Part shown: piece by piece, positions 11,941 to 36,656 of the stretch
Position numbering within the stretch: position 1 is the stretch's first letter
Layout of the letters: each line of letters starts with the position of its first letter
IMG/VR virus record: IMGVR_UViG_3300035212_003103
Span: 1 to 43,132 of that record
Origin: a virus
DNA length: 43,132 nt
Direction: 5' to 3' (one strand)
Translations under genes and position numbers: made by a program
Notes under the pieces: generated by a model
What the model saw: the letters and a program-made list of their open reading frames with translations, nothing else
Told to the model about the DNA's origin: nothing
The model's database searches: none

Positions 11941-12003
11941 GATAAAATTTGTCTCAAATTATATTTGTTGCAATTTGCTATTGGATTTTGTATATTTGAG
12001 CTT

Positions 12004-13338
12004 ATGTCTAAAACTATTTCAAATTATATGCAGCTTATGGAAATGTTTTCTGATCTAGAATCCGAAAGCACATTATACATCTCCTACAATGATGATATTT
12101 TGGACTTTACCGACAAAAGCAAGCAAGATGCCTATAGGTTGGTAATATCGTCTAAAAAGGGCATTTATGAGATTCCTATGTCCAATCCATGGATGATGAA
12201 TCTTTTTAACAGGGCTGCATCAAAAACTATATTTTCAGGCAACAAGAAGATATTGACTTGGAATTGGAAAAATTTTGTTTCTTTTTGTTTTGGAAGATTC
12301 AAAATAAAATTTGAATTTTTTTGTTCAATTATCGATTTGAAGATTATTGAATCATTTTTTGGTTTACGACAAAAAAAGCCAGAAAATTTTAGCGAATGTT
12401 TAAGAAGGCTTAAATTTGTTTTGGATTCTGGGAAATGGCCACAATTACAATCCATTTACAAAAGTGTTTATTTACCGCTAATGTTAGATGTTATACCAGC
12501 ATTGGAATGTGTTGGGATATTAGATCAAGATAGGTTACATGCGTATTATGAGATAAATGGTCAAGAAAATGGTCGTTTGTTGTGTTTTAATGCATACACA
12601 AAGGGATATGTTCCTCATGTCATAACACCAGATCAGAAGCTCGAATTTAAGCCATTAGATTTTGATCAAGTATTTTTATACTTTGATTTTAAGAGCATGG
12701 AAGTAAAAGTACTTCAATGGTTGTCTAAAGATCCAGAACTACAAAAAGTCTGTGAAAGTTCTGATGTGTACAGTTCTGTATATGAACTTATAACAAAAAC
12801 ATCTTGCGATTCGGAAGATAAAAGAAATCTTTGTAAACGATTCTTTTTACCAATTTTTTATGGGATGGGCGTAAATGCCATATCTGAAAATTTAGGACTC
12901 CCAGTAAAGGCAGCAGAATCAATAGTAGAAAGGGTAAAGAGTACATTTTCTGTGGCATACTCATGGATTGAATCATTTCAGAATAAGGCAAAAGAAGAAC
13001 ATGCTGTTTGTGATATTTTTGGTAAAAAAAGAATATTTTTAGAAAAAGAATATAAGGCTAGAAACTTCGTAGTTCAATCTCCAGCAGCAATATTTTGTTT
13101 AGAAAAACTTATACAATTATACAAAAGCTTGAATGGTAAAGCTAAAATCGCTTATAATGTACATGATGGTTATATGCTTTATAGCACAAGAGATAATTTA
13201 AAGGATGTAATTTTAGAATCACAATCCGTTTTGCTTTCTAAAAGTCATTTGTTCCCAGATATGAATTTAAATATTTCGTGTTATGCGGGAAGAAAATTAT
13301 CAGAGCTAAAGAAAATTAACATTAACAAAAGAGAATAA
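12004..13338 (+). CDS. Divergent family A DNA polymerase
   Basis: 444 residues from ATG 12004. Motif A DFKSME (228-233), the O-helix pattern R274-x3-K278-x7-YG (286-287) and motif C VHDG (386-389) are all in order; the Glu usually following His-Asp is Gly here. A segment equivalent to the conserved RxxxNxxxQG stretch reads RNFVVQSPAA. The first 200 residues are in the place of a 3'-5' exonuclease domain, but I cannot find the DxE motif, so proofreading is probably lost. The protein is much shorter than T7 or E. coli Pol I. As the only polymerase in a T4-like replication block, it may be the replicative enzyme (inference). Confidence 0.85.
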   Translation: MSKTISNYMQLMEMFSDLESESTLYISYNDDILDFTDKSKQDAYRLVISSKKGIYEIPMSNPWMMNLFNRAASKTIFSGNKKILTWNWKNFVSFCFGRFKIKFEFFCSIIDLKIIESFFGLRQKKPENFSECLRRLKFVLDSGKWPQLQSIYKSVYLPLMLDVIPALECVGILDQDRLHAYYEINGQENGRLLCFNAYTKGYVPHVITPDQKLEFKPLDFDQVFLYFDFKSMEVKVLQWLSKDPELQKVCESSDVYSSVYELITKTSCDSEDKRNLCKRFFLPIFYGMGVNAISENLGLPVKAAESIVERVKSTFSVAYSWIESFQNKAKEEHAVCDIFGKKRIFLEKEYKARNFVVQSPAAIFCLEKLIQLYKSLNGKAKIAYNVHDGYMLYSTRDNLKDVILESQSVLLSKSHLFPDMNLNISCYAGRKLSELKKININKRE

Positions 13339-20582: not shown

Positions 20583-21014
20583 ATGAAAAAAAATGAAAAA
20601 ATTGCAAAGAAAAGAAAAGAACGAGAAAAAAAATCACATACAAAGGTTTTGCTTAGAAGGGAAGCTATAAGAAAAGAACGAAGGGAAATTGTTCGTCAAA
20701 ACCTTTTGGAAAAATCACTTAGTCCTAAAAAAACACCCATAGTTAACAATAGAGAGTTGCAATTGGATCAAGAAGCAAAAAAAACAGAAAAAATAAAAGA
20801 ACAATTATTGAAAAATCAAGAGATTTTAAAAGCTCTTGAAGAACAATACAATCAAGAGCAAGACATAAGAAAACAAATTAATGAGAATTTGGAATCTGAA
20901 GGCAATATGAGCTTGCAGGATAAATTATCTGCCATGCACAAAAGTGTCATCGATTCACAGGAAAAATTTCAAGATCCTGATGCACAAATAGTAATCGATT
21001 ACGAAAATAAATAA
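20583..21014 (+). CDS. Charged coiled-coil protein, unknown function
   Basis: 143 residues, first 45 very basic (KKRKEREKK, RREAIRKERREIVR), then long charged helices with heptad-like hydrophobic spacing (KIKEQLLKNQEILKALEEQY) and an acidic end. Such architecture fits a nucleic-acid-binding or scaffolding protein. It lies between the repeat-containing gene and the hairpin array upstream of gp32. Function unknown. Confidence 0.65.
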   Translation: MKKNEKIAKKRKEREKKSHTKVLLRREAIRKERREIVRQNLLEKSLSPKKTPIVNNRELQLDQEAKKTEKIKEQLLKNQEILKALEEQYNQEQDIRKQINENLESEGNMSLQDKLSAMHKSVIDSQEKFQDPDAQIVIDYENK

Positions 21015-21030
21015 ATTTATAAAATTAATC

Positions 21031-21059
21031 TTGCACAACATGATAGATACGATTATAAA
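21031..21059 (+). promoter_or_regulatory. Sigma-70-like promoter candidate for the gp32 gene
   Basis: TTGCAC (21031-21036), 17-bp spacer, TATAAA (21054-21059). Transcription would begin about 21066, within the first repeat unit, so all three hairpins would be in the gp32 mRNA leader. Confidence 0.4.
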
Positions 21060-21060
21060 T

Positions 21061-21177
21061 GACTAACTGAGAAGCATATCGTTTGTTTCTCGAATCATTG
21101 ACTAACTGGGCAATAAATGTTTTATTGCTCGAACCATTAACTAATTGAGTAGTGATTATTCATTACTCGAACCATCA
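21061..21177 (+). repeat. Three tandem 39-nt hairpin units (gp32 leader element)
   Basis: Units begin at 21061, 21100 and 21139. Each has a conserved GACTAACT-type left flank (AACTAATT in unit 3), a hairpin, and a conserved CGAAYCAT right flank. Stems differ completely in sequence but pair fully: GAGAAGCA/TGTTTCTC (one G-U, 7-nt loop), GGGCAATAAA/TTTATTGCTC (one G-U, 3-nt loop), GAGTAGTGA/TCATTACTC (one G-U, 4-nt loop). Conservation of pairing with changed bases indicates selection for RNA (or DNA) structure. The array ends 20 bp before the gp32 ATG. T4 gp32 represses its own mRNA through a leader structure, so an autoregulatory operator is the natural guess. Confidence 0.8.
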
Positions 21178-21196
21178 TTTAAAGGCAGGTGCTATC

Positions 21197-22210
21197 ATGG
21201 GTATCGATTACGAACCACTCGATCTTAACGAGTTAAAAAAAGAATCCAAACGAGTAAATTCAGAAAGCAACACGGGTCAAAACGAAGAGTACTTTGCAAA
21301 ATATGTACGACTTCCTGACCGTGATGGATTTGTTTTGATGCGTTTTTTGCCTAAGAGAAAAGGCCAAAAGTTGTATTGTGCGACAAGAATTCACACTTTA
21401 AATAATCCAACTACGAATCAGAAAAGAATATTCCATTGTCCTAAAACTCTTACCGATACTGATAGGGGTCCACAATGGCGTGGAGATTGCATTATTTGTA
21501 AGTACTATAGTGATTTATGGCAAAAATCTGAAGGACTGTCTGGCAAAGATCAAGAAGATATGCGTAACAGTGCTAGGGAGTTAAAGCCAGTTGAACGATA
21601 TTATTACAATGTTATCGTTAGATCGGAAGTAGATCCTAAAAATAAGTCTATAGTAGGAACAAATGTAGGGCCAAAAATTTATTCATGTGGCAAACAAGTT
21701 CATGCTAAGATTTTGAGAGCAATTCTTGGTGATGAGGCTGCTGGAGAAAAGGAATTAGGGGATATTACACATCCAACAACTGGTCGTGATTTTAGACTTG
21801 TTAAAAAAGTTGTTAAGAGTGGCAATAGAGAATATCCAAACTATGACTTTTCAAAGTTTGAAGAAGTTTCTTCTTCAGGCACCTCAGAAGAGCTTGAAAA
21901 ATGGCTAACAAGTTTACAAGACCTTCAGTCTCTTCGTATTATCAAATCTGGCGATGATATTAAGCATGCCTTGAGAGTTCATTGCGGAATGATAGTAGAA
22001 GGCCAACAAGATGATTCTTTAGATGAATTTCGTAATTCATCGGGATCTTCTTCTAGATCTAACTTAAGTTCTTCAAATGTAATTTCTGGTTCAGATACTA
22101 TTGATGAAGAAATTTTATCTGTCAAGAAAACTGCAAAGGTAGTTTCCAAAACGGATGATTCTGCATCTCTTGCTGATGATGACTTTTTGAAAGAATTAGA
22201 AGGTATTTAA
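21197..22210 (+). CDS. gp32: Single-stranded DNA-binding protein (gp32-like)
   Basis: 337 residues from ATG 21197 (CAGGTG upstream); a longer GTG start inside the third hairpin unit is rejected. Zinc-site residues His80, Cys81, Cys98 and Cys101 (FHCP, CIICK) match gp32 style. A Ser-rich linker (GSSSRSNLSSSN) and acidic tail ending DDDFLKELEGI follow, as expected for the protein-interaction tail. It coats ssDNA and coordinates the replisome and UvsX loading. A strong terminator follows at 22223. Confidence 0.9.
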   Translation: MGIDYEPLDLNELKKESKRVNSESNTGQNEEYFAKYVRLPDRDGFVLMRFLPKRKGQKLYCATRIHTLNNPTTNQKRIFHCPKTLTDTDRGPQWRGDCIICKYYSDLWQKSEGLSGKDQEDMRNSARELKPVERYYYNVIVRSEVDPKNKSIVGTNVGPKIYSCGKQVHAKILRAILGDEAAGEKELGDITHPTTGRDFRLVKKVVKSGNREYPNYDFSKFEEVSSSGTSEELEKWLTSLQDLQSLRIIKSGDDIKHALRVHCGMIVEGQQDDSLDEFRNSSGSSSRSNLSSSNVISGSDTIDEEILSVKKTAKVVSKTDDSASLADDDFLKELEGI

Positions 22211-22222
22211 TTCCCTGTCTTC

Positions 22223-22257
22223 AAATAGGTGGAGTCAGTGATTCCACCTATTTTTTT
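22223..22257 (+). terminator. Intrinsic terminator after gp32
   Basis: Perfect 11-bp stem AAATAGGTGGA/TCCACCTATTT (22223-22233/22243-22253) with a 9-nt loop and following T-run. Confidence 0.9.
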
Positions 22258-35737: not shown

Positions 35738-36079
35738 ATGATTTTTTATTACGATTGTAGTGGAACAGTAAATATTAGTGGCTGTTCAAGAATGGAAAAA
35801 AATATTTATATTTTCTATAAATGGGGAGAAAGATCCGTTGTTTACATAAAGCCAAAGGCAATAAAAGGAATATTAGAAAAGATAGCTGTTAAAAAAGTCA
35901 TATTAAATAACAAGAATAATAAATATATTCCAATTTATCAAGATTCATTAAATTCATTATATAATGAATCTGAACTTATTAGTGAATTAGAAGCTAGAAA
36001 TTATGCACAAGATTATATTGATAAACAAAAAGATATGTTTGGTAAATCAATTACTAATTGTATTGGAAATTCTATATGA
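35738..36079 (+). CDS. Unknown protein
   Basis: 113 residues, basic, beta-rich at the start (NIYIFYKWGERSVVYIKPKAI), then a helical end (ISELEARNYAQDYIDKQKD). It follows the preceding gene by one base and overlaps the convergent exonuclease by 8 bp. Not recognised. Confidence 0.65.
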   Translation: MIFYYDCSGTVNISGCSRMEKNIYIFYKWGERSVVYIKPKAIKGILEKIAVKKVILNNKNNKYIPIYQDSLNSLYNESELISELEARNYAQDYIDKQKDMFGKSITNCIGNSI

Positions 36080-36656
36080 TTTTGTATCTTACCAACTTTA
36101 TAATTTCCATTGCATCATCTAAAGCTGTATGGCTATCCCAATTGTATTTTTGCCCTGATTGTCTCTGATATCTTTTGACGCAAGTTTCTAAATCTGGTAA
36201 AGCATAGTCTTCATTTTCAAAATATAAAATTGCAGGATCAATAAATCGACTTCTAAAAATAATATTGTTCCAATTTTCTTGTTTTATTTTTTCTTTTAAG
36301 AACTGGTAATCAAAGCTGCCGAAATTTTTACCAGCTACATTTAAAGCTATTTTTCCATAACGATTTGGAGGAATATCATTATCTTGTAAAAAATTACCAA
36401 AGGCATACATTAAATCATCAATATAAATGCAATCATCTCCATTTTGTAATATTTTTTCAAATATTCTTTTGTGCATCACAACCGCTTGAGCGTCAAAATT
36501 ATATGTTCCTTCTTTTTTAATATACCTGTGAAACTTAGGTAAATTTTCAATCGGAACTTTTGCATTAGTATCATCTATTACAGCAGCAAATTCAATAATG
36601 TCATTAACCAAAGGGTTTATCCCAGTTGTTTCTATGTCTATTGATACATATTTCAT
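36072..36656 (-). CDS. DEDDh 3'-5' exonuclease (DnaQ-like)
   Basis: 194 residues. ExoI SIDIETTG (Asp7, Glu9), ExoII NFGSFDYQFL (Asp116) and ExoIII SHTALDDA (His176, Asp180/181) give a complete DEDDh site. It can degrade DNA or RNA from 3' ends, and could supply proofreading to the exonuclease-poor polymerase encoded at 12004 (inference only). Downstream of the Dda-like gene on the same strand. Confidence 0.88.
   Translation of the reverse strand: MKYVSIDIETTGINPLVNDIIEFAAVIDDTNAKVPIENLPKFHRYIKKEGTYNFDAQAVVMHKRIFEKILQNGDDCIYIDDLMYAFGNFLQDNDIPPNRYGKIALNVAGKNFGSFDYQFLKEKIKQENWNNIIFRSRFIDPAILYFENEDYALPDLETCVKRYQRQSGQKYNWDSHTALDDAMEIIKLVRYKII

Follow-up and report, generated by a model that had tools for sequence, protein, structure and literature searches.

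The leader of a phage gp32 gene was found to carry three tandem hairpins set in conserved flanks, and we lean slightly towards the prediction that this leader is an autogenous translational operator of gp32 in which a hairpin and a single-stranded motif have been multiplied. The array lies in a virus record of 43,132 bases (IMGVR_UViG_3300035212_003103), the whole of which is called the window here, and the leader extends between the end of the upstream open reading frame (ORF) at 21014 and the gp32 ATG at 21197. The order along the putative operator is promoter-like site, hairpins with UAACU, ribosome site, gene and terminator-like hairpin. The features below were read from the sequence, the units also from fold and alignment, and the gene from its database matches.

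21018..21036, + strand: extended -35 region TATAAAATTAATCTTGCAC of the predicted gp32 promoter
21031-21036, + strand: -35 box TTGCAC
21054..21059, + strand: -10 element TATAAA, 17 nt past TTGCAC
21060..21098, + strand: unit 1 (39 nt), with flank TGACTAACT, hairpin 21069-21091 (8 bp, 7-nt loop) and flank GAATCAT
21099..21137, + strand: unit 2 (39 nt), with flank TGACTAACT, hairpin 21108-21130 (10 bp, 3-nt loop) and flank GAACCAT
21138..21175, + strand: unit 3 (38 nt), with flank TAACTAATT, hairpin 21147-21168 (9 bp, 4-nt loop) and flank GAACCAT
21176..21196, + strand: stretch between unit 3 and the ATG, with one UUUAAA (21178-21183) and the Shine-Dalgarno-like AAAGGCAGG (21181-21189)
21197..22210, + strand: gp32-like single-stranded DNA-binding protein gene (Pfam PF08804, E 2.8e-10; PHROG 224, E 3.6e-18)
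22223..22253, + strand: terminator-like hairpin (14 bp, then TTTT) in the gp32/uvsX gap, absent from the consensus scan output

Predicted promoter and leader of the gp32 gene

The Pfam and PHROG matches bear out the identity that a preliminary description, made from the sequence, had given the gene. When the sequence was re-read, its coordinates and its TTGCAC-17-TATAAA arrangement also proved right, and the array does lie in the gp32 leader, ending 21 nt 5' of the ATG. The promoter consensus scan requires T as the final base of the -10 element, and the TATAAA of the window is therefore absent from its output. Judged by eye, the spacer is also 17 nt long in the related leaders L007, L024, L028, L075 and L077, and 18 nt long in L006. 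From the -10 element, transcription is predicted to start near 21066, a few nucleotides 5' of hairpin 1, the stem of which starts at 21069; part of the left flank of unit 1 is 5' of this predicted start. The consensus scan gave no intrinsic terminator in the window leader, and positions 21182-21190 had a mean pairing probability of 0.38 in the predicted ensemble.

Within the window, TATAAAATTAATCTTGCAC was the sole match at up to three mismatches, and the form found in relatives, ATAAATTAATCTTG, had exactly one perfect match per record in 7 of the 12 records searched. The 17-mer TTTATAAATTAATCTTG, present in the promoter of one subgroup, had exact matches in 25 virus contigs of IMG/VR, with gp32 downstream in 17 of them. 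This extended promoter motif is very conserved (window 21018-21036, L006, L007, L024, L028, L075 and L077); it is longer than an ordinary -35 box and is perhaps an activator site.

Three tandem hairpin units

The units are arranged head to tail, each with the flank ACTAAYT, a stem-loop with a GRG/CUC base and the flank GAAYCAT. Their stem arms (21069-21076/21084-21091, 21108-21117/21121-21130 and 21147-21155/21160-21168) leave two linkers between stems, both of 16 nt (21092-21107 and 21131-21146). The leader contains copies of TAACT (UAACU in the mRNA) at 21064, 21103 and 21138, all in unit flanks. UAACU thus precedes every hairpin and is present in both linkers, which indicates that hairpin and motif were multiplied together in the window phage.

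The three tandem hairpins of 8, 10 and 9 bp in the preliminary description were confirmed. Hairpins were counted if they had a stem of at least 8 bp, a loop of 3-8 nt, at most two G-U pairs and at least two G-C pairs; three such hairpins occurred in none of 3000 dinucleotide shuffles of the 182-nt leader and in 2 of 716 window stretches taken at 60-nt steps, both of which overlap the gp32 leader. The fold of 21060-21210 had a free energy of -39.6 kcal/mol (z = -3.7; 0 of 200 shuffles as stable) and consisted of the three hairpins, each 1-2 bp longer at its foot. Mean pairing probabilities in the ensemble of the predicted transcript were 0.88-0.99 for the arms and 0.24 and 0.15 for the linkers, the ranges for hairpin 3 and linker 2 being off by one base. 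All three units had been given as 39 nt long, which holds for units 1 and 2; unit 3 is 38 nt.

Identity between units was 9-11 of 12 positions in the left flank and 9-10 of 10 in the right flank, and 6-9 of 16-17 in the stem-loop core. Over eight pairs counted from the base, pairs 1, 3 and 5 are invariant (G-C, G-C and A-U); pairs 2 and 6 vary in a single arm, and both partners differ in pairs 4, 7 and 8. The stems had been called fully co-varying; the inner pairs do covary, but those near the base are almost fixed and the stems are partly alike. Arms paired in register at 24 of 24 positions, compared with 19 and 20 for the two all-arm swaps, and, owing to the common stem base, arms from different units can also pair with each other, at 5 to 8 of 8 positions. 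Pairing between arms of units 2 and 3 was considered as an alternative, at -7.6 kcal/mol versus -9.8 and -12.3 kcal/mol for the local hairpins; a switch is therefore possible but not favoured. A simple scan of the next 16-21 nt found no convincing H-type pseudoknot in the window units, the loop-to-downstream helix being 2-3 bp and never longer than 3 bp; in two L028 units, this helix had 4-5 bp by the same kind of scan.

Tandem units in a second lineage

The tandem array is rare. It was found in the window phage (its own record and four contigs with an identical 182-nt leader) and in one two-copy lineage of three contigs, L028 and its relatives L075 and L076 (gp32 89% identical), which carry two tandem hairpins at the same place. 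Other relatives have a single hairpin that differs in sequence, or lack one. The L028 and L075 units align with those of the window as ACNAAYTGRG, stem, loop, stem, YCGAAY; L075 unit 1 has a single C-U mismatch within its stem. In the alignment of all seven units, 95.2% of the pair cells are standard pairs, even with one row shifted by a gap that acts against the structure, and both partners change in five of the nine pairs. None of 500 shuffles matched the covariation score of 0.630, which fell to at most 0.18 when the partner was slid, and the number of pairs changed on both sides was reached in 18 of 500 shuffles.

In the sequences searched, a covariance model built from the seven units, R1, gave strong matches only before gp32. 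It refinds its training leaders by construction, L028 unit 1 and L075 unit 2 having no separate matches, and beyond those leaders no match reached an E-value under 0.08, whether in the window with 48 loci, in 12 records or in 16 further loci. Its match at the single-hairpin gp32 leader L009 (15.3 bits, E 2.1) is at chance level. A search for a tandem-CGAA pattern behind the promoter returned 10 stretches, seven of which belong to the window phage or the L028/L075 lineage; the other three (L097-L099) are chance-like. The check proposed in the preliminary description, a covariance-model search of related phages, therefore recovered the same kind of element before gp32, and only there among the sequences searched. 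Neither loss of stem pairing nor absence from the gp32 leaders of all relatives, the two outcomes named beforehand as evidence against the idea, was observed.

Under RNA rules, the window hairpins have free energies of -9.7, -9.8 and -12.3 kcal/mol as mRNA, compared with -4.5, -5.9 and -6.8 kcal/mol for the complement. The sense is also favoured in the four L028/L075 hairpins, slightly in L075 unit 1, and in the single hairpins of L006, L024 and L077, whereas the leaders L007 and L009, each with one hairpin, have the more stable fold in the complement (-14.0 and -15.6 versus -11.8 and -14.2 kcal/mol). The 55 core cells with letters include eight G-U and no A-C, so that the wobble pairs are on the mRNA sense strand. 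Under DNA rules, the advantage of the sense strand in the window hairpins is smaller. The sense stability and the presence of G-U without A-C favour mRNA as the acting form of the tandem units. Together with the conserved flanks and the compensated inner stems, this preference supports the earlier proposal of selection for structure.

gp32 leaders across the group

Loci were collected from IMG/VR and comprised 68 gp32 loci, two more near L028 and at least 19 found by profile (80 of 160 relatives). The 88 leaders, from which L070 (a match at a contig end, without leader) and L071-L074 (repeat copies of contigs already known) were left out, formed 36 clusters at 85% identity. An uninterrupted hairpin of at least 7 bp between -85 and -12 was present in 15 of the 36 gp32 clusters versus 52 of 200 leaders of other genes at the same loci, which include terminators of preceding genes (p 0.046; the cluster p-values given here and below are too optimistic because the clusters are related). 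Interrupted stems were seen in the predicted folds of other clusters, for example L017, L032, L043 and L049. Folding z-scores below -2 were obtained for 14 of 36 gp32 clusters versus 31 of 201 other leaders (Mann-Whitney p 0.011), and over all gp32 clusters the sense folded better than the antisense (p 0.006). As hairpins are only weakly more frequent than in other leaders, a hairpin alone is weak evidence.

The sequence-motif signal (ACUUU and UAACU) in gp32 leaders is stronger than the hairpin signal. Within the last 45 nt, ACTTT occurred in 23 of 36 gp32 clusters versus 14 of 205 other leaders (p 7.6e-14) and TAACT in 17 of 36 versus 13 of 205 (p 6.9e-9); the uvsX leaders at the same 36 loci had ACTTT in three cases and TAACT in none. 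TTAA[AC] was found in 18 of 36 gp32 leaders and 38 of 205 controls, the dominant motifs being ACTTT and TAACT. The window leader itself has no ACTTT, and no TAACT among its last 45 nt. A direct repeat, TTTTGTGTAAC, is present between hairpin and ribosome site in five copies in L077 and two in L078 (within 110 nt of the gp32 ATG), as expected for a putative repeated binding site in these related leaders.

Changes that keep a pair by substitution on both sides were found in two single-hairpin groups, L007/L009 and L027/L031, and the 16 changes at paired sites within clusters comprised two double, seven one-sided and seven pair-breaking changes. In five more distant leaders (L164-L168) inspected by eye, hairpins follow a promoter-like site in L164 and L166, and L167 and L168 have no clear ones. 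A still separate, more distant set of at least 12 further loci, their newness judged by contig name (80 of 212 relatives), lies outside the 36 clusters (L171-L182); L181 was dropped as too short. The 11 readable leaders, nine of them distinct, contained no such hairpin, no TAACT and one ACTTT, indicating that hairpin and motif are not general in the wider family.

Gene neighbourhood and relatives of the phage

A hairpin of at least 7 bp lies within 95 nt 3' of gp32 in 32 of the 36 clusters (a T-run was not required), so gp32 is probably its own transcription unit. Downstream of the terminator-like hairpin in the window are a UvsX-like recombinase and a sigma factor. Other ORFs match DNA helicases, including Dda-like and DnaB-like ones, a Holliday-junction branch-migration helicase and an SbcD-like nuclease. 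The ORF at 9156-9986 matches a beta-glucosyl-HMC-alpha-glucosyltransferase, pointing to possible modification of the phage DNA with glucosylated bases. The helicases, nuclease and glucosyltransferase, together with gp32 and UvsX, make the phage T4-like in gene content.

DNA polymerase and polymerase-exonuclease matches fall on separate ORFs (11965-13338 and 36072-36656), possibly a split polymerase. The small charged ORF upstream of gp32 (20583-21014) had no Pfam or PHROG match. From position 1 to beyond 1400, the window contains long arrays with an 18-nt period; a 300-nt reference had 84 matches in them at 18-nt spacing, interrupted near 700-1100. These arrays probably encode a six-residue protein repeat.

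The gp32 protein matched 63 records in the phage collection, the best being an uncultured 595-kb phage at 36.3% identity; none of the others among the best 40 of the 63 exceeded 29.6%. No near relative was found in this collection, and a DNA similarity search of the phage records gave no match. A pattern search of genome contigs returned 34 matches, with no relative among them.

A predicted gp32 operator and its alternatives

In the operator that we favour, an mRNA probably encoding gp32 alone would begin a few nucleotides 5' of hairpin 1. When in excess over the available single-stranded DNA, gp32 would occupy the unpaired linkers that separate the hairpins and extend from there across the ribosome site, so that its own translation would stop. 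In this scheme, each loading site would be delimited by hairpins, which would also prevent the linkers from pairing; an increase from one to three copies of hairpin and linker would give gp32 more places to load and could sharpen or shift the threshold. Binding, cooperativity and repression by gp32 at the window leader are inferred. A more specific version is possible, although we would sooner doubt it than assert it: a pseudoknot-free modular operator with predicted hairpin-bounded loading sites of 16 nt, in which the number of modules (one to three hairpins; two and five repeats in L078 and L077) evolves and sets the level at which gp32 production stops. A 16-nt site has room for about two gp32 monomers.

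The main rival of the autogenous operator is that the hairpins protect the mRNA 5' end or serve as processing sites, blocking 5'-end-dependent decay without gp32 binding. Their site at the predicted transcript start, the largely free stem sequence and the presence of a hairpin in part of the relatives are all consistent with such a role. By itself, however, protection does not account for flanks conserved in sequence in two lineages, for three copies where one might suffice or for a single-strand motif enriched at gp32, and we regard it as rather unlikely. Since the hairpins of an operator may also shield the mRNA 5' end, the two roles are compatible and both may act.

That the units are sites of another RNA-binding regulator, of phage or host, which reads flank and hairpin together, appears improbable. 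The frame ACNAAYTGRG ... YCGAAY round variable stems would suit a protein that reads stem base and flank, but several genes should carry the sites of a general regulator, and in the records searched, which are mostly fragments, strong matches stand only before gp32.

An element acting as folded single-stranded DNA, either as a replication or recombination site or in the manner of STAXI near ssb, is very improbable. The window hairpins can form on both DNA strands, and a DNA role has been considered for STAXI, a set of tandem structures near genes including ssb (PMC2864571); the wobble pairs, however, are on the mRNA sense, the element lies directly 3' of the promoter-like site, and there is no Rfam match at gathering score. 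A functionless tandem duplication, which would fit the rarity of the tandem form and the likeness of the flanks between window units, is just as hard to credit, because decay would break pairs whereas the diverged cores are fully paired, and because two lineages carry tandem units. We also considered, and set aside, integron attC sites, type III antitoxin repeats and put-like antiterminators.

Comparison with known systems

Rfam gave no family at gathering score over the whole window; RAGATH-30, seen when 20950-21300 was searched, had an E-value of 0.48 and was far under its gathering score. Bacterial and phage mRNAs, for example ompA, can carry 5'-terminal stabilising hairpins, which resemble the present ones in lying near the mRNA 5' end (here a predicted start). 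Such hairpins are not known to form arrays with sequence-conserved linkers.

The preliminary description knew of no element of this form. No tandem-hairpin gp32 leader was found described in the literature searched (titles and starts of abstracts, mostly of papers outside subscription), but two systems are close in kind: the T4 and RB69 operators (PMC535899) and STAXI (PMC2864571). STAXI, the nearest tandem element near ssb genes in that literature, occurs near ssb, topoisomerase, antirestriction and integrase genes and was considered likelier to act as RNA than as DNA (PMC2864571). Both arrays consist of two or three tandem structured units near a gene for a single-strand-binding protein. STAXI units are pseudoknots, often with UUCG loops, whereas the window has plain hairpins directly before gp32; a simple scan found no repeated pseudoknot of the STAXI kind in the window units.

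In T4 and RB69, gp32 represses its own mRNA through a folded 5' element and a less structured, repeat-bearing stretch (PMC535899); in the T4 model, gp32 nucleates on the 5' pseudoknot and spreads over the UUAAA stretch to the ribosome site (PMC535899, PMC3014915). PMC535899 describes as unclear how gp32 recognises its message among other nucleic acids, and it leaves open leader binding and autorepression by gp32 from T4-like phages apparently lacking the pseudoknot; PMC3014915 calls for more study. The leaders compared here form a natural series with zero, one, two or three hairpins and varied single-strand repeats before homologous gp32 genes, by which the roles of folded element and linker become separately testable. 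Like the T4, T2 and RB69 operators, the window element is a gp32-family leader with a folded 5' element followed by short single-strand motifs up to the ribosome site. In place of their 5' pseudoknot of about 28 nt, which a simple scan did not find in the window units, there are plain hairpins with conserved flanks, three in the window and two in L028/L075, and in place of UUAAA repeats there are UAACU flanks (ACUUU-type motifs in relatives), the UUAAA-type content over the window ribosome site being the single UUUAAA at 21178-21183.
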